NCBI GenBank assembly: GCA_028713225.1
Contig: JAQTOS010000006.1
Coordinates: 62,001-126,000, forward strand
Reading direction: 5' to 3'
DNA: 64,000 bases
Source: Candidatus Altimarinota bacterium
GTDB lineage: Bacteria > Patescibacteriota > Gracilibacteria > BD1-5 > UBA6164
Shown here: in pieces, positions 4,621 to 44,030 of the stretch
Layout: every line of letters starts with the position of its first letter
Position numbering within the stretch: the stretch's first letter is position 1
Program-made: the position numbers and the translations under genes
The notes under the pieces: model-generated
Databases searched by the model: none
Told to the model about the DNA's origin: nothing
What the model saw: the letters and a program-made list of their open reading frames with translations, nothing else

Positions 4621-4649
4621 AAAAAATGGCATAGGGGAGTTCCCTATGC
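4621..4649 (-). terminator. Terminator of the small minus-strand ORF, overlapping its stop
   Basis: On the minus strand GCATAGGGA and TCCCCTATGC form a stem, followed by a run of eight T. The ORF's TAG stop lies inside the left arm. Confidence 0.75.
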
Positions 4650-4988
4650 TGCTTTATTGGAAGGTAAATAATTAAAAAGGTAATTGTTATTAGCGAAAAT
4701 GTCTTTCACCAATTCAATATTTATCTTTCCGTTTTGTTGAATTGCTTGAGATTGAATTCGTTTTAAAACCAATCTCTTTGCTTGTCTATTCCGCTTAATC
4801 GCGGTATGTTTTTTCTCGTGCAAGATTTCACCATCGGTTTTCATACGAGTACGAGTAATTTCCGGTAATTCAAAAATACATCCTTTCCCTGCTTGAATAT
4901 AATCTTCTGCGGTTAATTTTGCAATAAACTGCAGTCTAGCTTCTCCTTCTGGAATTGGATTTTTGTAAGATTCTCTAGAACTACGCAT
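4644..4988 (-). CDS. Small unknown protein, foreign-looking (Shine-Dalgarno, no UGA)
   Basis: This 114-aa basic protein is preceded by a strong Shine-Dalgarno sequence, GGAGG, 6 bases before the ATG. Native genes here lack such a site. It ends in TAG and has no in-frame UGA, so all its glycines are GGN, and it uses CGT/CGG/CGC arginine codons as well as AGA. Its residues are rich in Lys, Arg and Gln (for example KRNRQAKRLVLKRIQSQ), suggesting nucleic-acid binding, but I do not recognise a family. Its own promoter and terminator flank it, making a self-contained cassette between two native operons. The base composition and translation signals suggest recent acquisition from a standard-code donor. 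Confidence 0.7.
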   Translation of the reverse strand: MRSSRESYKNPIPEGEARLQFIAKLTAEDYIQAGKGCIFELPEITRTRMKTDGEILHEKKHTAIKRNRQAKRLVLKRIQSQAIQQNGKINIELVKDIFANNNYLFNYLPSNKAA

Positions 4989-16832: not shown

Positions 16833-16837
16833 AAATC

Positions 16838-18436
16838 ATGAAAAAAATATTGCTTACATTTTTTGTAATATTTTCTAGCGTTTTAGCGAACGCTAGTTTT
16901 GTTAATGCCTGATTTCTTGATTGAGATGATGATTTAAATATATATAAGAAAATAGATGAAGGAGTTTATAAATTACATGCTAGCCTACTATCAAATCAAT
17001 TAAAATGAGGAAAACCAGATTGAGATATTTGAAAAGTATTAAATTCTTATACAATAGAAAAATGTTTTAAAGAAGATTGAAGTATAAAGGATGATGAGAT
17101 GGCAAATATACAGGCTCAAACTTGAGCTTATTTAACTAGTATTTATTCGATGTTAAAAGATGAGTGCAAAAATAATTGATCTCTTACTTATGCTCAATTG
17201 AGCATTTATTCAGACACTATAAAAAATCATTATAAAAAATCTGATAACACAGCTAAGAAAGATGCTGATGCAATATATAAAATATCTAGAATAGGTCTTT
17301 ATTCTGATTGAGTAGATGAAAATTCTCCTTTTGATTTGATGAGTGATATAAAAGATATTAATAAAATAATTTTCACTGAGGATATTCCTTATGAGTGAGT
17401 AAATAATATGAATAATGATTCAGCTCTTGCTGCTTATTTGAATTGAAAACTTGGAAAAGATATATTAGATGCAGCTCAAAATCCAAGCTTCTTAGCGAGT
17501 AATCCTAATGCTTGAAATTCTTCAAATACTAATTCAAATAATAATATAGTTTGAGATAATAATGATTCAAGTTATGCTTGTAAAACTAATGAATCTGGAT
17601 TAAGTCAAAAACAATTAGATTCAATTATGCCTACTTGGTGAACTGGTGCTAATTTAAATAAAATAGATAGTGTCTGACTGAATTCTAAATTAGACCCAAA
17701 TAGCGGATGGAGTTTTTCTGGTAATAAAAATGTATCTGGAAATACTTATTCACCATTAAATGATAATAGTTTATGGCCTTGCAATGAGTTTTTTTGTATA
17801 ACAATTAATTTCAAAATGTATAGTCAGAACTTGCTTTGAGGTGGAAAAACTAATTCTATACAAGCTCTTATTGAAAGATCTAACTGACATTTAAAAAAAT
17901 TTACAAATAGTTCATTAATCCGATCTCGTCAAACAACAAACAATTTTCAAATTGGTTTAAAAGATTTGAGTCTTCCTGATTTGTTTAATGTAAATTTTGT
18001 TATATCAAAAAAAGCTCCACCAATATTAAATTTACATTGATGAAAAGAGCTTGCTAACACTCCAAATAAAGATAATATAACAAAAACTTTAATTCAAGAA
18101 TATTTCAAAAATTATTGAATTGAATATAATAGAGTTAATGATTTAGATATTTTTGAACAACAAGAATGTGAAATAGCTTCAGTTATAAATTCAGCTGAAC
18201 AACAAATTAACAAAAGTCCATTGAAATTTAATGATTGTAAAAATAATCAATATAAACAAAAATTAAATGAAGTAATATCTCAAAATATTGATTCTTCTTT
18301 AATGGCTGATGATTTAAAAGGTTTTAACAATCAATTTGTAGAACTAGCTTGATTTCTGGCAAATTTCCCAGATTATGCTAATAATATAAAAATAACAGTA
18401 AGTAAAATGTCAAAAAAATGAACATGATCGAATTAA
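16838..18436 (+). CDS. Secreted unknown protein A (532 aa)
   Basis: A signal peptide (MKKILLTFFVIFSSVLANAS) is followed by a long helical, Asn/Ser-rich exported protein with several scattered cysteines that could form disulfides. A linker rich in Asn and Ser lies in the middle (about residues 225-245). I do not recognise a domain. It starts 5 bases after clpC. Its last codons run past an internal ATG, so the reading frame overlaps the next gene by 19 bases (18418-18436). UGA Gly is used throughout. The overlap and similar style suggest that proteins A and B are made and act together at the cell surface. Confidence 0.7.
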
Positions 18437-19806
18437 AAAGAATTATATTTTTAGTATCAGTTTTGATATTACTCGTTCCACATATTAGTCTAGCTGCAGA
18501 TTCTAATGCCACTGATTGTTCTGTTAAACCTACTTCAGATGCTATTCTCGATTATATAAAAGATGATAGAAAAATTGTATCTAATATAATAAGTAATCTA
18601 GACGGATGAAATGATGCATCAACTTTATGATGAAAAACAGTTGATACTTATGATAAAATTAGGTCAAAAATGATAGGATTATCAAATTCTATATTTTCAT
18701 GGAACGGCTATGAATCATATTTTAAATTTTATGTTACATTACCTCTATCTCCTGTTGAACAAGAAATTCCATATGAGATAATGAGAGATCATAAAATTAT
18801 TCAAAATGAAGGGAAAACTCTTGAAAAAATTTTACAAAAATTAGTAAAGAATGGGACAGATAGTTCTTCAGTAAAAAATCTATGTGATTGAGTAGCATGA
18901 GATTGATGTAGTTGATTAGAATGAAAAACCGCACGAGACGTAATCACAAAATTAATGGAAAATAATTCTAATATTGCTGATTTATATAGATTATCAGTTT
19001 TATGAGAAGTTGCTAATTTTAAATGAGATTTATTTCTAATTGATAAAGATAAATTAACAAGTTATTATAAAGAAGATAGGGTTACTACATATTCACAAAA
19101 TTGTTGATTTGCAAAAAAGTGAATGGATAAAATTAAAGAAATTTTAGATTGGCAAAAAATAACAAAACAATGATTAATTCAATGGGATGAAGCATTACTT
19201 AGATTAAGATGTTCTTGAGTAGAATCAGCTTGAGTATGTAGTGATAAAGATAGTAAAAAATATAAAGAAATTGAAAAAAACTTGCTAAAAAATGAATTAC
19301 GAAGACAATGATTATCGTCAAATATGACAAAAAAAATGCTTCAAAATTTGGATAATTTCAATAATACTTGCATGTGAAATGATTTAGCATCAAACGCAAT
19401 ATGTGCCGGTAAATTAGCCCTAAAAAATTCAGCAAAATCAGTTTATAATTGGGATATGCAAAAATGAGAAGACTGATGATTTATACAAAATTTTATCGAT
19501 ACCGCAGATTGAATAATCTGACAAGGACTTGGTAAAAAAGAAAATGTAAGTATACAAAAATTAGCTGAATACCAAGATAAACGAGACCATGAAGCTTTAA
19601 TAAAAAAAGAATTGAGCGAAGTATTTCAAGCTTGATTATGATCTATTTGACAAAGTACCGATGAAGAAGATAAATTACAAAGTAAAATAATAGATATACA
19701 TTTGAATTTAGTAAAATCTATAGAAATACTTAATGATACTGCAAAAATATCTTGTGATGTATCTAGAATGCAATGAGCAAGTCTCCCTGATTGATGTGTA
19801 AAATAA
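18418..19806 (+). CDS. Secreted unknown protein B (462 aa)
   Basis: The start is the ATG at 18418, which gives a clear signal peptide (IIFLVSVLILLVPHISLAA). The mature part is helical and contains cysteines spaced along the chain (ATDCSVKP, KNLCDGVAGDGCSG, RLRCSGVESAGVCSD, NNTCMGND, ISCDVSRM), consistent with a disulfide-stabilised extracytoplasmic protein. No known family is recognised. It overlaps protein A by 19 bases and is followed after 30 bases by map. The pair could be parts of a surface structure used for host contact in a predicted episymbiont; that is inference only. Confidence 0.7.
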
Positions 19807-19836
19807 AGAAAAAATTAAAATTTAAAAAATTAAAAT

Positions 19837-20595
19837 ATGAGCTGATATAAAGCAAAAACTCCAAGAGAGTTAGATGTTATGAGAAATAATGCTAAAATTC
19901 ATAAAATAGTATTTGATGAAATTAAAAAATTGGCTATGCCATGAGTAAATGCTTGGGAAATAGACCAATTATGTTTAAATATTTGTAATAGACATAATGT
20001 TTTACCAGGTTTTCACTGAGTTTATGGCTTCCCTGCAAATATTTGTATAAGTATAAATGATGCTGTTGTTCACTGAGTTCCAACAAAAAAAATGGTTTTC
20101 AAAGATGGAGATGTAGTAAAATTCGATTTCTGAGTAAAAGATAAAGAACTTGGACTAAATACTGATGCTGCTTTCACTATGATAATTTGAGAATCAAAAG
20201 ATAGAGAAGTTGAAAGATTTCTAAAAGTAAATGAAGAAGCACTTTACAAATGAATAGCAAAAGCAATTCCTGGAAATAGAGTTTGAGATATTTCAAATGC
20301 AATTCAATCTCATGTTGAAAAAAACTGATTCCATATAGTAAAAGACCTGACTGGTCACTGAATCTGATATAAACTTCATGAAAAACCTTATATTCCAAAT
20401 TATGGTAAGGCTGGGACTTGAGAACTCCTTACTCCTTGAATGACTCTAGCAATAGAACCAATCATCGGTTTTTCTACTGGAAGAATAAAAGAAGTTACTG
20501 GAAAATGGGAAATTTTTATGGCTGATAATTGACTTGGATGCCAATTTGAACATACGATTCTTGTTAGAGATTGATATCCTGAAATAATAATATAA
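19837..20595 (+). CDS. map: Methionine aminopeptidase type I
   Basis: This 252-aa protein carries the five metal ligands of the family: Asp in KFDFGV, Asp in NTDAAFT, His in TGHGIGYKLHE, Glu in LAIEPIIGF and Glu in QFEHTILV. The N-terminal motif RNNAKIHKIVFDEI and the segment HGVYGFPANICISINDAVVHG also fit. It removes the initiator Met from nascent proteins. By hand count 15 of its 27 glycines are UGA, a useful measure of normal UGA use in this genome. A terminator follows immediately. Confidence 0.95.
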
Positions 20596-29944: not shown

Positions 29945-29977
29945 AAATAAATAAGCACTTTTAGTGCTTATTTATTT
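29945..29977 (-). terminator. Terminator of the PHP-NMNAT / nadK / coaDE operon
   Basis: AAATAAATAAGCACT and AGTGCTTATTTATTT form a stem with a 3-base loop, just after the coaDE stop on the minus strand. Confidence 0.8.
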
Positions 29978-31146
29978 TAATACTCAAAATTCTTTCTTTT
30001 TTCGTATTCCAAAATCATAGAACCATATATTTCTGGAATATTGTAAGTTTTAGAATCTATATCCATAAAAAATCTATTTTCATATTTCTTTTGCATATTT
30101 TTGATTCAAGAAACTCTTTTTGTGAGAGAAATTTGATTATTAAGTCTGTGTTCTATTTGTTCATCACTTAAATTATCTCTTTGTTTAATTCTTTTTCTTT
30201 GTTCTGACTTATCCGTTCCAATATGAACAATATTTTCATCAAAAATATAAGTAAGTTTTCTATCGAAAATTATAGCTCATTCAACCAAAATTATTCAAGG
30301 ATTTTTTATAGAATCTACTTTTTTTCTAAGAATGTGAATCATCGGTTCTAGCATAATTTCCATCAAAATTTCCATTTTTTCTTTTGATGCAAAAACTATA
30401 TCTCAAAGAGTTTTTTTATCTGTTGTTCAATCAGTATTTAAAACTTTTTTTCCAAATTTTTCTGCGATTTTATTTCTTATATTTTGAAATAATGGAAATT
30501 CAAAACTTTCATGTAACTCCTTTGTAATTTGGTCTAAATTTATATAAGTTATCGCTAAATTTTTATCCTTGCTATAATCAGCTAAAGCATTACATAAAGT
30601 AGATTTTCCTGACGCAATTCATCAAGTAACTCAAACTATAAACTTCCCTGTTTGTCTCATTCTAAGAGCTTCTCTAACTATTGGATTAGCTAAGGATGCT
30701 ATATCTCCAGAAAATTGAGAAATTGCTTTTAGAGAGCTAGAACTTATAGTATTTTTTAATGGATCAAGTTGCGGAATTATTATAGTTTTTACATCTCAGG
30801 CAAATTTCTTTGAAGCCAAAGCTATTTCTTTTTCATATTCAAAATCTTTTCAGTCTCTTACTCATTTAAGTATTCCAGATTTATTATTTTCATAAACATA
30901 ATCTGCAATAACTCAAGAATGAATAATTACTTCAACTCTTTTTTTGATATTTTCAGGAATAGTTTTTTCTATCAATATTTTTCTTTCAGAAGCTGAAAAA
31001 GTAGTCTTTTTATTTGGATTTACTCCTATCAAAATTTCTACTTTCCCAACTGGATTTATATCTAAATAATCTCGCACAACAGCTTCGTGTCAGTAAGTCC
31101 AAGGGTCAAAAGATCCAGGGAAAACAATTGTATTATCTTTTTTCAT
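29977..31146 (-). CDS. coaDE: Fused phosphopantetheine adenylyltransferase / dephospho-CoA kinase
   Basis: This 389-aa protein joins the last two steps of CoA synthesis. Residues 1 to about 175 are CoaD-like: VFPGSFDPWTYGHEAVV holds the nucleotidyltransferase HxGH-type motif (written TYGH), and FEYEKEIALASKKFAG, TIIIPQLDPLKNTISSSSLK and GDIASLANPIVREAL fit the rest. Residues 185 to about 389 are CoaE-like: P-loop VGVTGGIASGKSTL, NLDQITKELHE, LEPMIHILRKKV, ILVEGAIIF and RIKQRDNLSDEQIEHRL. The order is the same as in the bifunctional CoA synthase of animals. In most bacteria the two enzymes are separate genes. It is the last gene of an operon after nadK (6-base gap). The symbol is descriptive. 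Confidence 0.88.
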
Positions 31147-31152
31147 AATTTT

Positions 31153-31965
31153 TTAATTTACTACAAATCATTGTTCTGCGTAAACCTTGTTTTCAAACTC
31201 TTTTAGGTAAGAATTTGCTATCAAGAAATTTACTTTTAATCTAGATTTTTGAACTATTATATCCACATCTCATCTGTAATTTTTAAGTACAGTTTGGTCA
31301 TCTGCAAATATTGATAATTCAGGTTTTCTAGCATTATTTTTGTGTACTTTTACTATTTGTTTATTTGGGAAAACAATAGGTCTTATTCATCGCGGTTCAA
31401 ATACATTAAGTCCTGTAGCGATAAAAGTATTTGCATTATGAGGTAAAAGAGGTCATCCTGCAGATCTATTATAACCAGTAGAACCAGCCGGAGTAGAAAT
31501 AAGTAAACCATCTCATCTCATATTTATACTTGAATATTCTCACACGATAATATCTGTATCAACCATTTTTGCTCAAGTTGCTTTTATAGCAATTTCATTA
31601 AATGCCTTAGCTTGAATTTCAGTTTTTTCAGTAAATACTTTTATATCAAGAAGTGGATAAGATTTTCTTTTAAATCAACCATGATTTTCCATTGCTTCTC
31701 TAGAATTAAGTAAAAATCATTTTGTTCAGAAATTTATAGGTAAATAATCTACTCTTTCTTCTGCTGTTTCTCAAATTGCTTTCAAAATAGTACCGTCTCA
31801 ACCCAAAATCATATAAACATTTTGACTTATTCAATCAAATATTTCATTTAATTTCTCTTCCCTAGCTAAAAAATTAGCTATATCTATATCTTTATTTTTT
31901 ATTCTATATTTATCAACAAGAATATTCTTCCCTGCTGAATGATTAATCAAAACTAAATCTTTCAT
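31153..31965 (-). CDS. nadK: NAD kinase
   Basis: This 270-aa protein carries the family hallmarks: GGDGTILKA (catalytic Asp and nucleotide loop), NFGTKGFLLN, and the strongly conserved RGDGLLISTPAGSTGYNRSAGGP. It phosphorylates NAD to NADP. Its neighbours are the PHP-NMNAT fusion upstream (24-base gap) and the CoaD-CoaE fusion downstream (6-base gap), so this operon makes NAD, NADP and CoA. UGA is used for the first Gly of GGDGT. Confidence 0.93.
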
Positions 31966-31989
31966 AATTTTTATTGATTAAGGAGTAAT

Positions 31990-33513
31990 TTATTTTTCTT
32001 CCCATTTTCCAATTACAAGTGGAGCAATGCGTTCATCCATAAATTTTCTTGCTAATTCAAAATCTTTTGAATTTAAAGCATTTCTCAAATTTGTAGCTGA
32101 AATATCAAGTCCATTTGGAAGTGTAAAATGGTCTCTTTCTACTTGAATGTAATTAACATTTTCTATATTTAATCTATTTTCATAATCTCTAATCGCATTT
32201 ATTGCTCTATCTTCCTTGAAATCTCATCCATAGAAATTTAATTTTCAATTAAAACCTGGAACTAAAACTTTTAATTTTTCTCACAAATTTGCTGTCCAAT
32301 CTCCATCATCTCAACAATCATCTAAGTAACTTAAAATAAGTTTTCCAGACGCTATTTCGTCAAAAAACACTGCCTCTAAAAATTCTCATCTTGTTTCAAA
32401 ATCAAATGGATTTTTTTCATTTACTACATTTGCTGAACCAAGAAAAATTACTAATTTATCATTTTCTCTAAGTGCTTGCCTAATAACTCTTAAATGTCCA
32501 ATATGTGGAGGATTCATTCTCCCAATCATAACAGCTAAATCTCATTTTTTGAAAAATTCTTGAGTTTCGAATTTTTCGTTTGAAACTCAATTTAATGCTA
32601 ATTTATCTTTGATTCTATACATATTATCTTCAATTTGTTTTTTAGATAATTCTTGATTTAAGTGGAATAATTGTCAGTGTTTTCAATCAAAAGTAGAACT
32701 AAAATGACAATCAGATCAAAAAGTTAAAATCAAATCATATTTATGTCCAAAATAAGTAATAACATCTAAGTATTTTTTTGTAGCCATAGGATTTACTTCA
32801 ATTGCATTTATTCAAAGGTTAACTAATTTTTCAATTTTACTAGAAAATTCTTCAATATCATTTTTAAAAGTTACATTTGGATGAGCAAGTGAAACTATAG
32901 AATTTGGAACTCTAATTTTATTAAAATCCTCTATATTAAATTCATAATCTCCTACATCTATATGTCAAATATCAGCAAATTGTCCTCATCTTTTCATAAA
33001 AGATTTATAAAAAGCATCCGCAGTCATATCTTTTTTTCCTGAAATTTTAGCAATATTATCTAAACTTATTTTTTTTCTATAAATATAATGAGCTATATGG
33101 TAAGCTACTAAATTTTCTACATTTACTCATTTTGATTTGTAGTAAGAAATAATTTCATCATAATTTATATTAAATCCATTTTCTATAAGTTTCTGAACTT
33201 GAATTTGTATTTTTTCTTTTCTAGCATTTCTTATACTTTCTAGATTTGGATTAAGTCGATTATTTATTTCTCTAGAATAATGAAGTATGTGCATACTTTT
33301 AGAATCTATATAATCACAAGCTGAAATTTCTGTACTATAAGCTGTTGCAATTCACATATTTTCAAGCGATTTTTGCATATTAACATTAACAATATCATGT
33401 TCAGTTACAGCTAAGAAATCTATTTCTTTAGGATTTATCATTTTTAGTATATCTTCATTTGACTTCTTTCAATCAGAAAGAGTTGTATGAAAGTGCATAT
33501 CTATTTTTTTCAT
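31990..33513 (-). CDS. PHP phosphoesterase fused to NMN adenylyltransferase-like domain
   Basis: This 507-aa protein has two parts. The N-terminal 320 residues form a PHP metal-dependent phosphoesterase: IDMHFHTTLSDG, AVTEHD, SLAHPNV and FGSDCHFSS supply the metal ligands. The C-terminal 170 residues form a nucleotidyltransferase of the NMNAT/NadM type: AVMIGRMNPPHIGHLRVIRQ with the HxGH motif (HIGH), then FLGSANVVNEKNPF, RDHFTLPNGLDISATNLRN (the SxTxxR motif). The transferase part would make NAD or its acid precursor from the mononucleotide. The role of the PHP part is unknown; it could act on a nucleotide intermediate. It leads the operon with nadK and coaDE, which supports the NAD role. 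Confidence 0.83.
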
Positions 33514-33660
33514 AATCTATTTTTGATTAAAATATAAATTTAGAAGAAAAGTATTTTTAAAGCTTTATAATTATTTTCTTAAATGTACTATATGAAATAA
33601 GCAAAAATGTAATAATAAAAAACTATAATCTGTAAAATTAAAATAAAATATAAATATTTT

Positions 33661-33688
33661 TTGCTTTAAAATAAAGAAAAAATATAAT
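33661..33688 (+). promoter_or_regulatory. Predicted promoter of the TrmB-like regulator
   Basis: TTGCTT and TATAAT are separated by 16 bases. AAGTGTAATATTAATTTACA, an imperfect inverted repeat resembling the NAD-region motif, lies between the -10 box and the ATG. Confidence 0.55.
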
Positions 33689-33719
33689 ATAAAAAAGTGT
33701 AATATTAATTTACAAACTT

Positions 33720-34445
33720 ATGAAATACGAAAATATATTAAGTAAAATATGATTATCTCGTGAAGAATCTACAATATATCTGGATTTACTTGAAAATAAT
33801 GAATCTAGCATAGTTGATATATCAAATAGAACTCATATCAATAGGCCTGCTTTGTACAAAATTATTCCTGCTTTGATTGAAACAGGACTTGTTGCAAATG
33901 TGGTTAAATGAAAAAGAAAAGTATTTAAGGCTGAATCTCCTAATAATCTAAAAAAACTATTTGATAATCTATCTAATAGTTTTACAAATATTCTCCCAGA
34001 TTTAGAAGAAATGCACGATTCTAATAACTCAAAACCAAGTATCAGATTTTTTGACTGAACAAAATGACTAAAATTTATTTTTGAAGATATTTTATCTACT
34101 CTTAAAACTTGAGATACATATTACAGATATAGTGCCAGAAATGTATTTGATAGAAAATATTTTCCAACAGATTACAATACGATTATAGATGATAAATGAA
34201 TTTATAGATATCTTATAACAAGCGAAAAATTAGCTAGTACAAAGACACCAAAAGCAAGAAGAGAAATGGTTGTTATTCCAAAAAATTTCGATTTATTTGA
34301 AGATAATGTTTCAAAAATAATTTATAAAAATAAAGTTGCCATAGTTGATTACAATTCACTAACTGGTTTTATTATAGAAAATCAACTTTTCGCAAAATTC
34401 GAAGAAAAACTATTTAAATTGTTATTTAAGTTAATGAAAAAATAA
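33720..34445 (+). CDS. TrmB-like HTH transcriptional regulator
   Basis: This 241-aa protein starts with a winged helix: EESTIYLDLLENNESSIVDI, SNRTHINRPALYKIIPALIETGLV and KGKRKVFKAESPNNL, as in TrmB-type regulators. A coiled stretch follows, then a C-terminal effector-like domain (IRFFDGTKGLKFIFEDIL, TYYRYSARNVF, IYRYLITSEKLA). The target genes cannot be told from sequence. It lies between the NAD/CoA operon (divergent) and a LemA/TPM pair. UGA use is normal, so it is native. Confidence 0.8.
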
Positions 34446-34516
34446 AAATATATTTGACAATTATATAATTTTAATTAAAAGTTAATTTGTATAGTTTTAA
34501 ATTATACAAAACCTAC

Positions 34517-34522
34517 AAGGAG
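34517..34522 (+). promoter_or_regulatory. Shine-Dalgarno site deciding a GTG start
   Basis: AAGGAG sits 6 bases before GTG at 34529. Native genes here lack such sites, so it marks the true start and the foreign character of the gene. Confidence 0.75.
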
Positions 34523-34528
34523 AAGACT

Positions 34529-35872
34529 GTGAATAAGTTAAATTTTTCACAAAAAGAGTTATTAAGTAAAGTTTTATTATTTTTTGGATTTATCTTACTT
34601 GCCGCATCTATAGGAGTAACTTTTTACTTTCTAATAAATGTACACTTGTGGGATAAATTATGGAAAATAATGATTCATAACTTTAACTTTTGGATAGTTA
34701 TATTTTTAGGTGCTGGATATACCATATGGAGAAAAATCAAAAATCCATTACAGTTTATCTGGCAAGAATTTTTTATTCAGCTTTTTGCTGGCATAATCGT
34801 CACAATAGCGATTTTTGGAACTTTATTTTTTTGGTTTTCTGGAATATCTGATACTGAAATTCATAATTCATATGCAGTAAATACTGAATATTATGAAGAA
34901 TGGACAGAAGAAGTCACTTACACAGAAGAAGAATGTAGTGGTAGTGGGGAAAATAAAACTTGTCATACTGTAACAAAAACAAGACACGATTATCATCCCC
35001 CATCTTGGCAAATAAATACTTCTACAAATGAAGTTATAAAAATCGATGAGACTCAATATAAAAATTTCGTTGCAAAATTTAGAAACGAAGATAAAAAGTT
35101 TTTATATAGAATTAATCAAGTAAGTTTTGGTGACGGAAATAAGTATGTTACTACTTGGTCTGGCGGAGAAGAAAATAAAGTTCCAATAGCTACTGAACAT
35201 ACTTATGTAAATTATCTAAAAGCTAGCAAGTCAATTAAAAAAAGACAAGGAGTGAAAAAGGCTTATGATAAATTACTAAAAGAATATCCTAAAACTTACG
35301 AAGGAGAATACGGAAATATTGAAGTCGATAGAATTGTAAATGCTGGTGTAAATTTACCTGTTAATTGGGTAAAATCAGTTGATTCTAAACTTGATTCTTA
35401 TTTGTCTAATGCAGGAGCTAGAAAAGAGTTAAATATTCTTATTTATACTGTAAATTCAAAAGATTCAGGTTTTATACATGCATTGGAGGAACACTGGATA
35501 TACGGAAAGAAAAATGATGTAATAATCGTTATGGGAATAAATCAATTTCCTAAAATTGAATGGCTAGAGATAATGGTTTTTGCTGGAAATGAATCTCTAA
35601 AAGTAGAATTACGCGATTCTATAAAATCTTTGAAAGATATATCAAATCCAGAAGAACTAACACAAATAATAAAAACAAAAGTTGAGCAAAAATATAAAAG
35701 AGTCTCTATGAAAACTCTTGAAAAGTTGCTTTATGATATAGATTTACCGATTTGGGTAATACTACTAGCTATGCTATGTGTTGCTACAATTATTGGATTC
35801 ATATCAATTATGTCTGAAAACAACTCAAAAAGAGATTATTCAGACATATTACAAAAAAGGAGTTTACGATGA
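34529..35872 (+). CDS. Membrane-anchored TPM-like protein, foreign, ends in TGA
   Basis: Starting at the GTG with an AAGGAG site, the protein is 447 aa long. It has N-terminal membrane segments (LLFFGFILLAASIGVTFYF; NFWIVIFLGAGYTIW; LFAGIIVTIAIFGTLFFWF), an extracytoplasmic part with a Cys pair (EECSGSGENKTC), a domain resembling the TPM fold (LNILIYTVNSKDSGF, GKKNDVIIVMGI) and a last membrane segment near residue 420. LemA and TPM proteins commonly pair, and a LemA-like gene follows. None of its roughly two dozen glycines is UGA, and the standard-code stop is TGA in an ATGA overlap. Under code 25 the ribosome would add about nine residues before a TAG at 35894-35896. Confidence 0.75.
   Translation: MNKLNFSQKELLSKVLLFFGFILLAASIGVTFYFLINVHLWDKLWKIMIHNFNFWIVIFLGAGYTIWRKIKNPLQFIWQEFFIQLFAGIIVTIAIFGTLFFWFSGISDTEIHNSYAVNTEYYEEWTEEVTYTEEECSGSGENKTCHTVTKTRHDYHPPSWQINTSTNEVIKIDETQYKNFVAKFRNEDKKFLYRINQVSFGDGNKYVTTWSGGEENKVPIATEHTYVNYLKASKSIKKRQGVKKAYDKLLKEYPKTYEGEYGNIEVDRIVNAGVNLPVNWVKSVDSKLDSYLSNAGARKELNILIYTVNSKDSGFIHALEEHWIYGKKNDVIIVMGINQFPKIEWLEIMVFAGNESLKVELRDSIKSLKDISNPEELTQIIKTKVEQKYKRVSMKTLEKLLYDIDLPIWVILLAMLCVATIIGFISIMSENNSKRDYSDILQKRSLR
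35857..35862 (+). promoter_or_regulatory. Shine-Dalgarno site of the LemA-like gene
   Basis: AAGGAG is 6 bases before the ATG at 35869, inside the end of the preceding gene. Confidence 0.75.
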
Positions 35873-36414
35873 AAAAATGGGGAATTATTGGTGCATTAGC
35901 ACTGATTGCATTGGGACTTTATGTAATCATTACGTATAATGATTTGGTAGGCTTGCAAAATACTCTCAGAACGACAACTGAAAACAATCAAAATGTATAT
36001 TCAAGTGTTTTGATGAAAATGAAGCAAGCCGGAATTATTGCAAAAGAAGAACGTAATACGCAAATTCAAGCATACGTTGATTCAATCAAAGCTCGTTACG
36101 GCGATGGTGGTTCAAAAGGTGTTATGACATGGATTCAAGAACAAAATCCAAGACTTACTGGGGAAATGTACAGTAAAGCACTTCAAATTGTTGAGTCCGG
36201 CTACAACGAAATTCAAGCAAATCAAACTACTGTAATTGACAATAAACGTCTTTACTATAATAAGCTTGATAAAATTCCTTCAAGCTGGGTAGCAAAATTA
36301 CTTGGCTTTACAAAAAAAGAGATTGATAGTTACACTATTATCCTGAAATCAGAAGCAGCGAAAGCTGATTACGCAACAGGCACTATGAGTGAGCAGAATA
36401 TCTTTAAAAAGTAA
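35869..36414 (+). CDS. LemA-family protein, foreign
   Basis: This 181-aa protein has one N-terminal membrane helix (MKKWGIIGALALIALGLYVI) and the LemA-type helical body (YNDLVGLQNTLRTTTENNQN, VYSSVLMKMKQAG, IVESGYNEIQANQTTVIDNK, RLYYNKLDKIPSS). The family is membrane-anchored and of unclear function. It uses CGT arginine codons and GC-richer synonymous codons unlike native genes (which use AGA), has a strong Shine-Dalgarno site and no UGA. It overlaps the preceding gene as ATGA, the classic translationally coupled pair of a standard-code genome. A terminator follows. Confidence 0.85.
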   Translation: MKKWGIIGALALIALGLYVIITYNDLVGLQNTLRTTTENNQNVYSSVLMKMKQAGIIAKEERNTQIQAYVDSIKARYGDGGSKGVMTWIQEQNPRLTGEMYSKALQIVESGYNEIQANQTTVIDNKRLYYNKLDKIPSSWVAKLLGFTKKEIDSYTIILKSEAAKADYATGTMSEQNIFKK

Positions 36415-36420
36415 AAATTA

Positions 36421-36454
36421 CCCTCTTCGTTAATGAAGAGGGCTTTATTTTTTT
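36421..36454 (+). terminator. Terminator of the LemA/TPM unit
   Basis: CCCTCTTC and GAAGAGGG form a stem, followed by a T-rich run; the converging nrtR gene ends right behind it. Confidence 0.85.
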
Positions 36455-37142
36455 ATAAAATACCTACTATTTTAAGTTCATTATCTGAAAAACTATATAG
36501 TGCTGCTGGCCTATTTGTAGATTTATCTAGATTTCAAGTATCTTTTAATATATTTAATGATGCTATTTTTTTTCTGAAATTTCTTTTATCAAGTTTAGTA
36601 TCCAAAATACTTTCATAAACTGCTTGCATCCTCGATAGGGTAAATTCTTGAGGCAAAATATTTTTTACTATATTTGTATATTCTAGTTTCCAATCAAGTC
36701 TTTGTTTTGCGTATTTAATAATTTTTTCATGGTCATATCATATAGAAATCTCATCTATTCTTGAATAATCTATTATGTGAACTTTTGTAAGGTCTACATT
36801 TTGCATAAATAAATCTGATGAAACAAGAGCATAATAAGTAACAGAAACTACATGTCATCTTGGGTCTCTATTAACATCTCAAAAAGTATAAAGTTGTTCT
36901 TTGTAAACTCATTTTATTCCTGTTCTATTTTGTAATATGTTATCAAAATTTTCTTCCAAAGATAATCCACTTCTAACTATTCAACCAGGAAGAATATATT
37001 TTCATTTTTCTGGTCAATCTTCTGTTCTTTGATTTAGAAGTAAGTAAAGACTTCATTTATAAACAGTAAAAATAACAATATCTATTGCCAAAGCTGGAAT
37101 AGAAAGCGAAAAAATATCTGGAGTAAGATTATTTGATGTCAT
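36453..37142 (-). CDS. nrtR: NrtR-type Nudix regulator of NAD metabolism
   Basis: This 229-aa protein has an N-terminal Nudix domain (LAIDIVIFTVYKGSLYLLLN, LPGGIVRSGLSLEENFDNIL) and a C-terminal winged helix (LPQEFTLSRMQAVYESIL, KLDKRNFRKKIASL, RPAALYSFSD). This order and the strings LYTFGDVNRDPRGHVVSV are typical of NrtR, a repressor that senses ADP-ribose-type ligands and controls NAD salvage. The Nudix box is degenerate (no REXXEE), as expected of a regulator that no longer hydrolyses. It lies within a run of NAD genes. An 18-bp motif shared with pncA and pncB overlaps its predicted -10 box. Confidence 0.88.
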
Positions 37143-37165
37143 ATATTTTTTATTTAAATTTAATA

Positions 37166-37183
37166 TAAGTGTATTATATACAG
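37166..37183. promoter_or_regulatory. Candidate NrtR operator before nrtR
   Basis: TAAGTGTATTATATACAG matches two near-identical sites before pncB and pncA. It overlaps the predicted nrtR -10 box (TATAAT on the minus strand, 37173-37178), as expected for autorepression. Confidence 0.6.
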
Positions 37184-37313
37184 TTTTAAATATTTTAAAA
37201 GTATTTTTTAGAAAAATAAAATCCATTTTATTTGCAAAAAACAGAGCTTAAATTTGACTTATTTTTATTTATAATTATAAATATTTCTTATATTATTTTC
37301 TCGTATCAAAATA

Positions 37314-38456
37314 ATGAACTCAATAAAAGATATTACTTATAATACTGCAATCTTTGTGAACTCAGATTCGGCTTGCGAAAATAATTGTCCTGGATGTAGA
37401 TTATGAGTTAAAGAAGCTGATTTATCTAAAAAACTTCCACTATCTGAATTAAAAAATAGAATAGATTATTTATCTGAAAACATTAATTACTGATGAAGTC
37501 TTATTTTTCAGCCTTGAAATATTTTACTTGAATATAAAATTGACGAAATCGAAGAATTATTCACTTATACATCAGAAAAAACAAATAAATTAATTCAATG
37601 GGAAATTGCTAAACTTGATTCTAGAATTCTTGATTTTTTAGAATCAGAAAAAATAAAATCATTAATCCAAAATCAAAAACTCTGTTTAAATGTTTGATAT
37701 CTAGTAAAAGATTTAAAATTATTAAAAGAAATTTTTGCAAAAGTCTTTGTGTTGTGAAGAGAAAATAGAAAAAATCAGATAATAAAAGAATGATTTCAAG
37801 ATGATTTTTTAAATTTAAGCGATGAAGAATATCTACAAAAACTTAGCCAGTATGCAAATACTTGAAAAATAAATGAAAATGAAAATAGAATGCTTTTTAG
37901 TATCCATAACTTATGAAATCTAGACAATAATATAGATGACTTTTGGAATTTTATAGATTTTTGTGGCTTTGACCCAGATAAAAATGAATTAAAATATGCT
38001 ATAGAAAATCATACTTATTTTTCTTCTCTGGAATCATGAGTGAGTATACAATTTATATATTTAGAAGAAAATAAAATAGTTGATTGAACTGTAGTTTGGG
38101 CAACTACTTACCAAAAATGAGAAGAAAGATGTATTTTAAATGATGGTAGTGAATTAGATATTTTATGAGATTGAACTATTAGTTTTCATACAAATCCTTG
38201 TAATTCTATAGCTTTGTGAAATATAAAAGAATCAACTTGATTTGATGTAGAAAAAGCTTTTGAAGAACACAAAATAAGAATCTCTAATATTCTTATAAAA
38301 TATTCTGAAACGGAAAATTTCAATCAATCTCAATTATGCAAAAAATGCTTAAACTGAGAAAATCCAGAAGTAAGTTTTTATGAAGAATTAAAATTTTTCG
38401 TAAAAAAAGATTTAAAATCTATAAAAAAGAAAATATTCAGAATTTTATCGATATAA
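37314..38456 (+). CDS. Radical-SAM-like protein, possible frameshift near its end
   Basis: In the main frame this is a 380-aa protein. Near its start CENNCPGC gives a CX3CX2C cluster like the radical-SAM 4Fe-4S motif, and near its end LCKKCLNGE adds another Cys pair, so it may hold iron-sulfur clusters. No closer family is recognised. After a run of seven A at 38402-38408 the -1 frame stays open for about 38 more codons and ends with TAA at 38522-38524, inside the terminator, as several native genes here do. So the real C-terminus is probably FKIYKKENIQNFID... ending LKKAV, reached by a -1 slip or hidden by a sequencing error. Confidence 0.65.
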
Positions 38457-38524
38457 AATATATTGAAATTCCAGAAAATTTCCAAAATAATCCTGTGGAT
38501 TATTTTCTAAAAAAAGCAGTTTAA
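38402..38524 (+). other. Possible -1 frameshift site and alternative C-terminal extension
   Basis: A run of seven A followed by G (AAAAAAAG) is a slippery sequence. Shifting by -1 there opens a frame of about 38 codons with native codon use, ending in TAA within the terminator hairpin. Without the shift the protein stops at 38456. Confidence 0.5.
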
Positions 38525-38537
38525 GACTGCTTTTTTT
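38509..38537. terminator. Bidirectional terminator between converging genes
   Basis: AAAAAAGCAGT and ACTGCTTTTTT form a stem around TTAAG. It serves the plus-strand radical-SAM-like gene and, reversed, nadE. Confidence 0.85.
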
Positions 38538-41043
38538 AGTTTATCATCTCCCCAACTTTCGCTCTTACATTAACAGCTAAATCCAAAATCATATTATCAA
38601 AATTAAAGTCAAACAATGAATCCAAAGCTTCAAATCCTCAAGCTCAAGTAGTGTAAGATCCTGCATCAACTCTGAAAAAAATTATAAGTAATTCTACAAA
38701 AGTTTTATCATCAAATCAAGAATTTTTAGCTCGTTCTTCTATCTCTTTTTTAGCATCAGTTAAGCTGATTTTATCTTGTAAATATTCTCAAATAACATCA
38801 ATTCCTATCAAAGATATAGCAAATTTTTTATATTTTTCTTCTATTTTCATTTCATCAAAAAATTTTTCTATCATTTTAGTAGTATATTCGTGTTGAGCCT
38901 CTTTCCCTTCATTTTCTATAGCTTGTGGTTTTCCTATATCGTGAAGAGCTAAGATAAGTTTAAAAATCTCTCTATCAAAATTTGCAGGAAATTTCTCTCA
39001 AACAAAGAATTTTTCAAAATTTCTTAAAACCATAGCTGTGTGAGTACCAATAGAATATTTTTCCCAAACTCAAGCATCTTTTTCGTAAATATGATGATAT
39101 TTTTCCTTTATTGCATTTGCAAAATCTGCCTTTAAATATCTATTAAAAATCTCATCTATTTTATCTTTTTTGATGATTTTATCCTTTAATTCTCTATATT
39201 TTCTAGTGAAATAAATAGGATTTTGTGCTTCTCTTAAATCTGTACCAAAAGCTCTTTTACTCACTCGTATAATTGGGGGACTTTGTATTCTTTTGAAAAA
39301 ATTATTTTTCATCATCTTGTAAATCTTTTCAATATTTTCTACAAAAGCTAAATTTGTAGGGAAAATTTCTGGAACAATTTGTCTATTAATTTTCAATTTT
39401 TCTTCCAAAACTCCAGCATCAAAACAATTTAAAATATAATCTAAATCTTTTCTTTCCTCAATAATTTGATACAAAATAGCATCAACAAAAGGATAATCAA
39501 AAGGATCTCATTTTCACTCATCTACATCTTGATGTTCTGATAATTCTGCTGATGGCATAACATTTATAACATCATTCAAAATTCATCATTTTTTCTCATC
39601 TAAAAATCTTGCTAATTCATAAACTTGAGTTTTATACAAATCTCAAATTGGGGTAAAAGCTCAGGCAACATCTCAGTATAAAGTAGCATATCAAAGAGCA
39701 ATTTCTGTTTTATTTCAATTAGCTGTAAATATAGCATTTTCTTGACTTGCAATTCCTGCCAAAACTCTAGCTCATCTATCACGAGCTTGTATATTTTCCA
39801 AATTCAATCATTTCACTTCTTTTCCCAAAGCTTTTTCAATCTCGTTTTTCGTCATATCTACAATATTTTGAATAGGAAATTCGATATATTTTATTCCTAA
39901 ATTATCTGCCAATTTTTTTGCAATATTTTTTGTAGTATTTGAATTAAATTTACTAGGCATATTTATAGCTATCACATTTTCTCGTCCAATTGCATCAACC
40001 AAAAGTGTAGCAACAATCGCACTATCTATTCATCCACTCAAACCTATAACAACTTTTTTTTGTTTTATAGAAATCATAAATTCTTTGATTCCATAAACTA
40101 AAACTTGGTGGATTTGTTCTGACATAGCCCTCACCCCCGGCCCCTCTCCCAATGGTAGAGGGGGGATAGTTTGTTCTGTCCCCTCGCCCATTGGGAGAGG
40201 GCTAGGGTGAGGGCTGTTCTTGTTAGTATGAGGTATTATCTTATTTTCCAAAAAATATCATCCTCAAATTTTTTCTCAATTTTGAAATACACTAGATTCT
40301 CAATCAAATACAAATATATTTTTACCTGTATTTTGCACACCTGTATTATTTGCATAAATAAAATCTATTCAGTCGCTTTTTTCTCTCATTATTTTTTCTC
40401 TTTTCGCTTGTTTATTTAGAGAAAAAGGAGAAGCTGAAATATTTACAATAATATCAGATCAATTTTCTTTTAATAAATTTACAGGTTTGATTTGATAATC
40501 TGTATCCCACATATCCTCACAAACAACTATTCAAACATTTCTTTTGATTCCATTTATAACAATTTCAAAAGGCTTAAAATAATTTTCCAAAGATTTTCAC
40601 TCTTCCCTAGCTAATTTATCCAAAGAATAGAAATATCTTTCATCATCAAATTGTTTGTATTTTGGCATAAGTGATTTAATAGTATATCAATCAAAAACTC
40701 AATTTGATATTTTTTGCCCATTTTGTGCTATAAATCAAGCATTATATTTTCTCATAGAACCATCTTCATTTTTTTTAAGTTCATCAATCAAAATATTTCA
40801 CCAAATTGCTCGTGCACGATTTTTCGTAGTGTCTATAATTTCCTGATTCATATCGTGACATTCTCTCACAAAAGATTCATTTTCAAAATCATCTCCCAAG
40901 AAATATCCAGGCACAGCCATTTCTGGAAATATAATCATTTCAGAGTCTGTATTTTTTATAGCACTTATAATATTTTTCAAATTTTTCTCAGGATTTCCAG
41001 GAATAACTTTCATCTGAGCGATATTTATAGTATTTGTTTTCAT
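38536..41043 (-). CDS. nadE: Glutamine-dependent NAD synthetase fused to an HD domain
   Basis: This 835-aa protein has three parts. Residues 1-270 form a nitrilase-type glutaminase: Glu41 in FPEMAVPGY, Lys in LMPKYKQFDDERYF and Cys (about 175) in GIVVCEDMWD. Residues about 310-620 form the synthetase: the PP-loop IGLSGGIDSAIVA (about 335), FTANGNKTEIALGYATLYGD and PSAELSEHQDVDEG. The remaining 200 residues form an HD-type domain: SIGTHTAMVLRNFEKF and LILALHDIGKP (about 690-700). The third domain is not usual in NadE. Between the first two domains lies a GC-rich palindromic insert coding for about 31 residues. It converts nicotinate adenine dinucleotide to NAD with glutamine. Confidence 0.92.
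40127..40214. repeat. GC-rich palindromic element inserted in frame within nadE
   Basis: GCCCTCACCC and GGGTGAGGGC form the outer arms of an 88-bp imperfect palindrome, with inner arms built on CCCTCTCCCAATGG. It is very GC-rich in a gene of about 30% GC and encodes Pro/Gly-rich residues (PSPLPMGEG, PPLPLGEGPGVRA) in the linker between glutaminase and synthetase. The reading frame is kept. Confidence 0.85.
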
Positions 41044-41071
41044 AGGTATGAAAGTTAAAAGATATTTTAGA

Positions 41072-41180
41072 TTAACCCATCCGGCTTTCAGCCACCTTCC
41101 CTTAAGTCTAATGGAAGGATTTTTACTTTTGTTCTATTCCCTTCCCTTAGATTTAAGGGAAGGGCTAGGGATGGGTTATT
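41072..41180. repeat. Palindromic MITE-like element, copy 1
   Basis: TAACCCATCC and GGATGGGTTA form the outer arms of a roughly 105-bp element. It contains GGCTTTCAGCCACC, shared with the copies at 43.3 and 50.9 kb, and inner arms CTTCCCTTA / TAAGGGAAG. It lies between nadE and two foreign-looking small ORFs. Confidence 0.7.
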
Positions 41181-41191
41181 AACTTTTTTAT

Positions 41192-41219
41192 TTGACAAAT
41201 ATATTATTGTAACTATAAA
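41192..41219 (+). promoter_or_regulatory. Promoter of the small ORFs at 41.3 kb
   Basis: TTGACA and TATAAA are separated by 16 bases; the first ORF starts 69 bases downstream. Confidence 0.6.
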
Positions 41220-41287
41220 GGCTTTGTCTTTTACTATTCTATAGCGTCAAAATAGACTATAGGAAATTCAACTCAAAGGAGTAAAGG

Positions 41288-41500
41288 ATGGAAGAAAATA
41301 ATATACTTCTTGAAGTTCGTTACTCTGTAAATAGAGTATCAAATTTCTATGTTGGTGCAGTTAGTGTCTATAAGGCTAATGTATTTCAATATTTTATAAT
41401 GAATTCACATTTAACCGATACAGATGAGACTATAGCTATATCAAAAACAAAAACTACTGCGGATATAATTCGCCAAAATATACTTTCGCCAAAAGAGTAA
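41288..41500 (+). CDS. Small unknown protein, 70 aa, foreign-looking
   Basis: The ATG is preceded by AAAGGAG with a 6-base gap, a clear Shine-Dalgarno site that native genes here lack. There is no UGA codon, Arg codons include CGT and CGC, and the stop is TAA. The sequence (SVYKANVFQYFIMNSHLTD, ETIAISKTKTTADIIRQN) suggests a small mixed alpha/beta protein; no family is recognised. It lies just behind a palindromic element and shares a promoter with the next small ORF, so it may have come in with a mobile piece of DNA. Confidence 0.6.
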   Translation: MEENNILLEVRYSVNRVSNFYVGAVSVYKANVFQYFIMNSHLTDTDETIAISKTKTTADIIRQNILSPKE

Positions 41501-41560
41501 GGATAGTCTTTTCTAAAATCTGTGTAAAATAGACGGAAAATTTAGTTAGAAGGAAAAAGC

Positions 41561-41731
41561 ATGAATAAAAGACTATTTGCAAAAAATAATGTTGTAAAAC
41601 ATCAACTTTTGTCTAGAAAAAAGTTGTTAAAGCTAGGATTAAAAAAACTAGCTATACTACTAAGAAGTGAGGAAATTCATTTTCCAAATGAGGAAAGTAA
41701 AGTTTTAAACAAACTAAATACTTTACAATAA
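41561..41731 (+). CDS. Small basic protein, 56 aa, foreign-looking
   Basis: A short ORF (MNKRLFAKNNVVKHQLLSRK...) with an upstream GAAGGA Shine-Dalgarno-like site, no UGA and a TAA stop. It is very basic and helical (KKLLKLGLKKLAILLRSEE), and is too short to assign. The bases TAAAATAGAC upstream resemble those before the preceding ORF. A GC-rich terminator follows directly, so it is a real transcription unit end. Confidence 0.5.
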   Translation: MNKRLFAKNNVVKHQLLSRKKLLKLGLKKLAILLRSEEIHFPNEESKVLNKLNTLQ

Positions 41732-41739
41732 ATCCATAA

Positions 41740-41760
41740 CCCGCATTTGCGGGCTTTTTT
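41740..41760 (+). terminator. Terminator of the small-ORF unit
   Basis: CCCGCA and TGCGGG form a stem with a 2-base loop plus GC extension, followed by CTTTTTT. Confidence 0.8.
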
Positions 41761-41774
41761 ATTCCCAAAAACTT

Positions 41775-43256
41775 CTAAGCTCGCATAAATCTAGCTTTTA
41801 CTTCTTCCCTAATTCTGTTAGTTTCTTCATCTCTTTTTGTTGCTAAATTAATATACTTCATAGTTTCATTTACTCTTGTTCTAGCTTTTTCTATATTAGC
41901 TACAATATTTTTATCAAAAATTTCTCATTTTTCATAAATTGGTTTTAATAATCTTTCTCCAAATTTCATAGTTCTGTCTTGTACTATATATCTAGCATCA
42001 GTTCTAATTTCTACATTTAAATCACCTGGAATTGCTTCTTTTATAGGGTCATTTGATAATTTACCAGTGTATATTTCTCATTCTTTTGTAAGTTTATACC
42101 CAGCAGAAACTTCATCTCTTGTTTTATTTTTTGTTACAAGTAATCCTCCAAGTCCATAAACTATAAATTTTTCTGGGTCAAATCCTGTTTCTCTGATTTT
42201 AGTTTCTATTTCAAATATTTTTTCTTTTGAACTAATATCTGCAATAACTATTTTGTCTTTGTTTGGATCTAAAAATCCATTTTCTTTTTGTTGTTTTAAA
42301 GCATAAATAGCTTGTTCTAATAAATCTCAGCTATCAAGTCTCATATTTATTACTTTGTTTGTGAATCTATATTTTTTCTTTAATTCTATAATTTTGTCTA
42401 TTCATCTAATTGAATCTACTAAATCTACAAGTAAAGCAACTCTATCCATTTTTTCTATAGCATTATCAAATGCTTCGTCTTCTGTATCGTAAGCAGCTAA
42501 GTATCTATGAGCTGTAGTTCCAGCAGATAATACTTTTGAAAGAGCTAAAACTGCAGTATCATTTGATGTAAATTTCAATCATCCTCACACATATAGTGCT
42601 TCAATTGCATCAATATGAGCTTCTTCATTTATTGCAGCTCTTTTCCCAAATTCTACTATTCTTCCTTCTCAAATGAAACTTACTATTTCATGAATATCAG
42701 TTGCAACAATAGTTTGATAAAATACTCTTAAAAATAATGGTTCAAATACTGCTGCAAGTTCAGCTGGTCCACTAATACTCATAATTGGTTCACCTGCTTT
42801 CATAACAGTTCCATCTTCGACAGCTCTCACACTAAGTGGTAAAAATCCATTATTTTCATCTATAACTTTTTGCCACATTGCTTTATCAAAATAGCTATTT
42901 CCTCATGCATTTTTTTGATTTGCATAAAAATCTCGTGCAAAATCAAGTTCATTTTGAGTAATTGGCATTAATAGAATATCATCTATGATTTTCTTAATAC
43001 CATAAACCACATTATAAAGCCCATTTGGAGATTTTCTAAGAGTCATAGTATAAGTTTCCATTGTATTCTTTTTTTCTTCTCATTTTAAATGAGTCATAGT
43101 TCTATTATAAGTATCAGTTGAAACTATTTTATTTTTCTTTGCTATGTCTTTTCTTATTCTCAAATCTTGAATTTCTTCAAAATCTTGGAAATTTATTTCC
43201 GGGAAAGCAAAATGTTTCTGCTTATATTCCCTTTCAAAGTTTATTGTTGCTGTCAT
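41775..43256 (-). CDS. pncB: Nicotinate phosphoribosyltransferase
   Basis: This 493-aa protein matches the NAPRT family: TMTLRKSPNGLYNVVYG, PLSVRAVEDGTVMKAGEPIM, FEPLFLRVFYQTIVATD, the GTTAHRYLAAY segment (catalytic region), LVDLVDSIRGI, NMRLDSGDLLE and FIVYGLGGLLVTKN. It joins nicotinate to phosphoribosyl pyrophosphate to give nicotinate mononucleotide, step two of the salvage pathway. It lies downstream of pncA on the same strand. A palindromic element and a candidate NrtR operator lie between the two genes. Confidence 0.9.
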
Positions 43257-43277
43257 AATTAGTTATGGTTAAGGAAT

Positions 43278-43374
43278 AATCCCCCGGCTTTCAGCCACCC
43301 CCTTAATAAGGGGGACTCTTTATTTTTCCAAGTCCCCCTTATCAAGGGGGTGACGAGGAACGAGTCGGGGGATT
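43278..43374. repeat. Palindromic MITE-like element, copy 2
   Basis: AATCCCCCG and CGGGGGATT form the outer arms; the inside holds GGCTTTCAGCCACCCCC, AATAAGGGGGACT and AGTCCCCCTTAT. It sits between pncB and its candidate operator. Confidence 0.8.
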
Positions 43375-43386
43375 TGTTCTAATTTA

Positions 43387-43404
43387 TTGTATATTTTACA
43401 CTTA
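43387..43404. promoter_or_regulatory. Candidate NrtR operator before pncB
   Basis: TTGTATATTTTACACTTA is 16/18 identical to the site before pncA and contains TGTA-N5-TACA as an inverted repeat. Confidence 0.55.
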
Positions 43405-43406
43405 TT

Positions 43407-44030
43407 TTAAGTTATTATTTTTGCTCACATTTCTTTCATTTTCATAATAGCATCTGATGCATCCCGTGGATTTACATTTACTCATTTGATTCAAGTTGTA
43501 TGTAATTTTACTTCATATCCTTTTTCTATAGCATCTTTTACTGTATAAAAATCACAATATTCTGTTGCAAGTCCGACAATATTTAGTATTTTTACATTAT
43601 TTGCTTTTAGAATTTCGTCTAGTTTTCTTCTAGCTTTTCCTTCTATAAATTCTTTTCCTCCAAAAGATGAATAAGAATCTATATTTTCTTCAAATCATTT
43701 GAAAACTTTATGAGTAACTAAGTGTTTTGCAAAACCTTGCATAAAATCAGCTCCCCAAGTATCTGCAACACAATGGTCTGGCCATTTCATTTCTCCATCA
43801 ATAATTTCAAATGGATTTTTATCGAAACTTGAAGCAAATGAAATATGATTTTTTGGATGCCAATCTTGGCTAGTAATTACAAGTTCTCGTTTATTTTTTG
43901 CTACTCTCATGATGGAATTTATATAATCTAGCAGAGTTTCCCCACCGTTCACATAAAGTGCTCCATTTTTATCTGCAAAATCGTTTTGATAGTCTACTAC
44001 TATCACAGCTGCCCTGTCTTTTGTATTCAT
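43407..44030 (-). CDS. pncA: Nicotinamidase
   Basis: This 207-aa protein has the catalytic triad of the family: Asp13 in IVVDYQNDF, Lys in DGEMKWPDHCV and Cys in VGLATEYCDF. The metal ligands lie in SQDWHPKNHISF. It deamidates nicotinamide to nicotinate, the first salvage step. Two predicted promoters and two candidate NrtR sites lie upstream. Confidence 0.93.

Follow-up and report, generated by a model that had tools for sequence, protein, structure and literature searches.

A UGA-free, phage-type TPM-fold/LemA-like gene pair of probable standard-code origin in the chromosome of a UGA-glycine bacterium

A pair of genes encoding a TPM-fold membrane protein (gene A) and a LemA-like protein (gene B) was found in a genome in which UGA is read as glycine. 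This two-gene cassette, a family pair mainly of large tailed phages, would have come into the recoded genome horizontally from a donor replicon that used, or was compatible with, the standard code and was most likely a phage or a phage-like carrier. It would have been inserted into a cluster of NAD-salvage genes with its own ribosome-binding sites and terminator retained, would never have gained UGA glycine codons, and would still carry the original UGA stop of gene A, now read through for nine codons. Together with the envelope-complex role proposed below, this explanation is given a probability of about two in three; taken separately, a foreign, standard-code origin of the pair is highly probable and a phage-type source is probable.

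Structure of the locus

The DNA analysed, called the window, is a stretch of 64,000 nucleotides (G000:C12:62001-126000) from a genome of 1.24 Mb in 19 contigs. Gene A (34529-35872, + strand, 447 aa, phrog_2087) starts with GTG and ends with TGA, a stop in the standard code, and gene B (35869-36414, + strand, 181 aa, phrog_1383) starts with ATG and ends with TAA. The location and the common strand given for the pair in a preliminary description of this DNA were correct, while the gene order is TPM-like followed by LemA-like; the 470-aa frame which had been read from 34487 starts too early, as the Shine-Dalgarno site indicates the GTG at 34529. The AAGGAG sites reported there upstream of both genes were confirmed at 34517-34522 and 35857-35862 (+ strand), respectively, each with a spacing of 6 nt to the start codon. 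The pair also has its own terminator, as had been claimed: an intrinsic hairpin, CCCTCTTC-GTTAAT-GAAGAGGG, with a T-rich tail at 36421-36442 (+ strand, z -4.4).

The terminal TGA of gene A (35870-35872, + strand), which lies within the ATGA overlap with gene B, had been overlooked in the preliminary description. Since the stop of gene A in the standard code is UGA, the host should translate nine codons further, and under code 25 the extension (35870-35899, + strand) reads GKNGELLVH and ends with TAA at 35897-35899. This UGA stop is a leftover of the standard code.

The pair is embedded in a contig of 126 kb and is flanked on either side by genes that use UGA. The left neighbour is a native TrmB-type regulator (33720-34445, + strand) with TGA at 6 of 8 glycine positions, and the right one is a native NrtR-type regulator of NAD metabolism (36453-37226, - strand) with TGA at 9 of 13. 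GC content was 0.30 for the pair and 0.26 for the host. Inspection of the edges of the pair revealed neither att sites nor an integrase nor a duplicated target, and the repeats there are short and AT-rich.

Glycine codons, Shine-Dalgarno sites and arginine codons

Codon statistics were calculated for the window and further stretches, which together represent roughly one quarter of the genome (1.24 Mb). As the preliminary description had stated, in-frame UGA glycine is absent from the pair: none of its 36 glycine codons is TGA (0/23 in gene A and 0/13 in gene B), versus a TGA share of 0.573 among the glycine codons of 209 sampled host genes (binomial P ~5e-14). AAGGAG was found at most 20 nt upstream of just 6 of 208 sampled genes. 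Shine-Dalgarno sites were present in 7/20 low-UGA genes versus 2/177 others (Fisher p 1.2e-6, with gene A itself counted). The use of CGT for arginine in the LemA-like gene was likewise verified (3 of the 5 arginine codons of gene B), and the arginine codons of gene A are 10 AGR, 1 CGC and 1 CGA, with 0 CGT. For codons other than those of glycine, gene B lies beyond all 154 native genes, and gene A falls within the native range (32 of the 154 score higher); because gene A is native-like in this respect, the two genes may not share the same age and donor, or gene A may have come to resemble the host in codon usage.

The statement that native genes lack all three of these traits was too strong, as about 10 other sampled genes combine low or no TGA with a Shine-Dalgarno-like start. 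UGA-poor genes of this genome are of two kinds, namely native ones without Shine-Dalgarno sites and CGN arginine, and a foreign-looking cohort with Shine-Dalgarno-like starts and CGN arginine. The genes for ribosomal proteins L25 and L21, native and highly expressed, belong to the first kind: they avoid UGA, have no Shine-Dalgarno site and are essentially free of CGN arginine. The ratio of CGN to AGR was 47:60 in the cohort with Shine-Dalgarno-like starts and 10:101 in the genes compared with it, a difference (p 4e-9) which is descriptive only because the cohort was picked by inspecting such starts.

Further UGA-free or UGA-poor genes, most with Shine-Dalgarno-like starts and CGN arginine, are located in the window at 4644-4988 (- strand) and elsewhere in the genome at L130:279-968, L141:6704-7606, 1300-1920 and 16662-17459, L147:16987-17745 and 19330-19980, L151:10139-11221, L152:6197-6844 and L145:5672-7189. 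Some of them match phage families (phrog_37671, an endolysin and an Apyc1-like metallo-hydrolase), and the gene at L145:5672 has its sole TGA 14 codons before its end.

The usual 3' sequence of 16S rRNA is GGATCACCTCCTT. The 3' region of the host 16S reads ...GGACTATCTCCTTATAAA and includes CTCCTT, complementary to AAGGAG. Since this part is retained, the Shine-Dalgarno sites of the pair can plausibly work. The anti-Shine-Dalgarno at L176:2920-2990 (G000:C16) is CTATCTCCTTA rather than CACCTCCTT, by which the pairing with AAGGAG is kept and that with GGAGG is weakened. Shine-Dalgarno sites are scarce among the native genes.

The pair in phages and bacteria

Each of phrog_2087 and phrog_1383 is represented by more than 400 phage records. 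Of 104 loci, 96 have the two genes side by side, 92 of them in the order A-then-B and 4 as B-then-A; near-identical phage records are included, and the loci thus do not stand for 104 independent cases. Its family assignments identify the pair as a phage cassette (phrog_2087 + phrog_1383) already on record but uncharacterised. It is carried by the large phages Kuttervirus Det7, XacN1, FLC9, phiAS5, Lak and Tenacibaculum pT24, with which the window pair shares both families, the tight same-strand adjacency, the usual A-then-B order, and the architecture of a TPM-like protein with transmembrane segments next to a LemA-like one. Unlike those pairs, it sits in a bacterial chromosome with UGA as glycine, among genes of NAD metabolism and not in a phage genome or prophage, and is only ~25-30% identical to them; compared with phage homologues, gene A has a longer N-terminus, extra transmembrane segments and an incomplete version of the cysteine pattern of most homologues. 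The pair was also found in bacterial genomes or megaplasmids of Variovorax, Achromobacter, Vibrio and a Kaiserbacteria MAG. No studied function of a phage LemA/TPM pair was found in the literature searched, PADLOC gave no match to a defence system, and NCBIfam had no name for the pair.

Two other occurrences of gene A were noted. A MAG labelled Rickettsia typhi has it on a 31-kb contig (L101, CAMDBF010000013.1), and the label or the binning is doubtful. Another Patescibacteria genome (L128, G125:C5:3280-4251) has a homologue without an adjacent LemA gene, immediately following an apparent ABC-type permease.

Gene A was lacking in all 59 relatives sampled within the genus, family and order of this genome, and was present in 6 of the 341 genomes of the class, namely the window genome, G446, G477, G485, G606 and G491. 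The recoded carriers of the pair are the window genome, G446, G477 and G485, and in all four the pair is UGA-free and lies next to UGA-using genes. The gene A copy of G606 has no in-frame UGA. The genome of G491 comes from a UGA-recoded order, and its copy (L125, G491:C135) is open in the standard code on a contig with a GC content of 0.55; this contig is probably a binning contamination. UGA accounts for 0.57 of the glycine codons in sampled genes of G485 and for just 0.12 in G477, so the absence of UGA from the G477 copy is weak evidence alone. In recoded relatives, each ordinary LemA gene has 3-7 TGA, and LemA genes as such therefore do not avoid UGA.

No relative of the window copy above ~32% identity was found among phages, plasmids, genome contigs and viral contigs, the genomes being scanned by one short peptide pattern, and a scan of viral contigs with either window protein singly gave no relative. 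The nearest relative of the window pair that was found is in a UGA-recoded SR1 MAG (G446, L096, JAPLUU010000003.1), at ~30% identity. The two pairs have in common a UGA-recoded host, the A-then-B order, the lack of UGA, a long N-terminus, shared inserts and a terminator-like hairpin of their own; they differ in that the G446 pair has TAA as the stop of gene A, a GC content of 0.40 and other neighbours.

A tree of 39 rows was built by a quick search with SH-aLRT supports. The copies of G477 and G485 nest inside a phage clade which includes the Lak and Tenacibaculum phages, and those of the window and G446 fall provisionally close to the root of the second phage group; a sister relation of the latter two was neither supported nor rejected. 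A single clade of all four recoded copies was rejected (p-AU 3e-41), by which at least two entries into recoded bacteria are indicated. An alignment of four sister-lineage rows retrieved 19 loci related at up to 44% identity to the G485 copy rather than to that of the window, and sister-lineage copies reach up to 44% identity to a phage contig. The pairs of G477 and G485 are 60/73% identical, and TopA of the same two genomes is 63% identical; this similar divergence would be compatible with inheritance within that family and avoidance of UGA, rather than with a recent entry.

Predicted proteins

Gene A matched phrog_2087 with E 5.5e-50 (profile positions 5-356 of 360). In its AlphaFold model (pLDDT 82), a TPM fold was recognised by structure comparison at residues 245-391 (Z 9-11 over ~125 residues), the matched TPM structures including 5anp, 3pvh, 7tbr and 8c7i (Z 10-11). 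Hydrophobic helices are located at about 15-33, 85-103 and 410-428, and the C-terminal tail is basic. The Pfam TPM model was absent among the families matched by gene A at E up to 1, and on the predicted structure the protein is therefore filed as having the TPM fold only, not as a member of Pfam TPM. It resembles the TPM-domain proteins BA41, AtTLP18.3, Psb32 and cg2496 in the fold and in its predicted membrane association, and differs from them by the lack of a PF04536 match, an identity of 7-17%, an extra beta domain and transmembrane helices.

Gene B matched phrog_1383, annotated as 'virion structural protein', with E 1.4e-31 (profile positions 16-186 of 187). A profile of 43 gene B homologues matched the LemA structure 2etd (E 3.5e-7, positions 94-160), and the AlphaFold model (pLDDT 80) is all helical with an N-terminal transmembrane segment at 4-22, preceded by MKK; a structure search gave generic helical bundles only. 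PF04011 reached 23.0 bits, below the gathering cut-off of 26.2, and gene B is therefore named LemA-like rather than Pfam LemA. Like bacterial LemA (PF04011, 2etd) it appears as a membrane-anchored helical bundle with profile homology, but it belongs to a phage-type subgroup. The earlier naming of the pair as LemA/TPM is thus right at the level of fold or profile, although neither gene reaches the Pfam cut-off.

A tentative role for the pair, somewhat short of an even chance, is that of a membrane-anchored, extracytoplasmic TPM/LemA complex which maintains or remodels the envelope. Gene B would have an N-terminal membrane anchor with its helical bundle outside, and gene A would be membrane-anchored with the TPM and beta domains outside; this outward orientation of both is suggested by the positive-inside rule. 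The two predicted proteins may form an extracytoplasmic complex assembling or protecting membrane complexes under envelope stress. During infection it might preserve or alter the envelope to the benefit of a phage, and in an episymbiont it might be useful under envelope stress. TPM proteins help membrane complexes to be repaired or assembled, and a chaperone-like partner role in the PSP envelope stress response has been proposed for them (PMC11237479). Up-regulation of both lemA and a TPM gene was observed in an sppA mutant of Flavobacterium whose membrane homeostasis is disturbed (PMC13236525). Topology, complex formation, envelope role and expression of the pair are inferred.

Genes of NAD metabolism around the pair

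The pair lies inside an NAD cofactor cluster at 29977-44030 of the window (CoaE, NAD kinase, NMNAT-like, NrtR, NAD synthetase, NAPRTase and nicotinamidase-like). The separate pair lineage of G485 is also in an NAD cluster (L127), and in two phages a gene for an ADP-ribose-1-phosphate phosphatase adjoins gene A. A Pfam scan of 132 neighbours at viral loci revealed no recurrent partner, however, and the copies of G477 and G446 are outside NAD clusters; a functional link to NAD metabolism was rejected on these grounds as a probable coincidence. Within the cluster, the NAD synthetase ORF (38536-41043, - strand, 835 aa) has a long C-terminal extension that is HD-type-like by eye, and its insert SPHPSPLPMGEG...PPLPLGEGPGVRA resembles a translated mobile repeat. 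The NMNAT-like nucleotidyltransferase (31990-33513, - strand) is fused to an N-terminal region that is PHP-domain-like by eye.

Origin of the pair

The claim of a standard-code donor was supported by the UGA-free coding, the UGA stop of gene A and the Shine-Dalgarno-led starts, and further by the foreign codon usage of gene B and the absence from the 59 relatives. As to the kind of donor, the preliminary description had proposed that the genes were recently acquired from a standard-code bacterium serving as host to the episymbiont. The standard-code traits of the pair, its occurrence in bacterial genomes and megaplasmids and the cohort of similar foreign-looking genes fit that proposal, but all bacterial relatives found, in genomes scanned by one short peptide pattern, are at or below ~32% identity, the nearest one found is in a recoded genome, the families are overwhelmingly those of phages and the non-glycine codons of gene A are native-like, by which a recent host-bacterium transfer is made unlikely. 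That description had also taken nearest relatives with the same codon use in Absconditabacteria or Gracilibacteria as a sign against transfer; UGA-free relatives were indeed found there, though only ~30% identical, and repeated entry is the better reading since the four recoded copies do not form one clade.

UGA-free coding might instead be selected rather than recent, either by high expression or by the need to be readable in both codes while moving between cell types. All four diverged recoded copies are UGA-free, 21 of 21 glycine positions shared by G477 and G485 are GGN although third-position identity at 4-fold sites is 0.23-0.35, and the L25 and L21 genes avoid UGA as well. Such selection is nevertheless considered rather improbable, as selection for readability in both codes would remove the UGA stop of gene A and polyphyly speaks for repeated entry. 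High expression alone is disfavoured as the reason for the missing UGA, given that native, highly expressed UGA-poor genes lack Shine-Dalgarno sites and CGN arginine and the pair has both. About equally doubtful is a code-neutral mobile cassette kept UGA-free by selection and carried by phages between episymbionts and ordinary bacteria. An assembly chimera or contaminating DNA, of which the G491 contig probably gives an example, is very improbable, given that the pair lies between UGA-using genes within a contig of 126 kb, has a GC content close to that of the host and is similarly arranged, with UGA-using flanks, in three other genomes.

For a horizontally acquired phage-type cassette, a phage is the likelier vehicle of the window copy. 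From spacer matches, Liu et al. (PMC10746230) predicted that Gracilibacteria and Absconditabacteria are hosts of code-11-compatible phages, some of which would infect standard-code bacteria too, and a UGA-free phage-type cassette in recoded chromosomes is what these predictions lead one to expect.

Significance

Published evidence for gene flow over the UGA stop/glycine barrier comes mainly from matches of CRISPR spacers and from the coding density of phages (PMC10746230). The pair is a chromosomal, sequence-level trace of such gene flow, suggesting that genes are carried across the code barrier by phages or other vehicles. The type of event is already known; what is new is a concrete chromosomal case, with an unadapted UGA stop and repeated independent entries. 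An unadapted UGA stop, Shine-Dalgarno-led starts and UGA-free coding can together serve in practice to single out foreign genes of recoded Patescibacteria, and a cohort of such genes is apparently present in the window genome. A widespread, uncharacterised pair of phage membrane proteins, repeatedly retained by bacteria, is thereby brought to notice.
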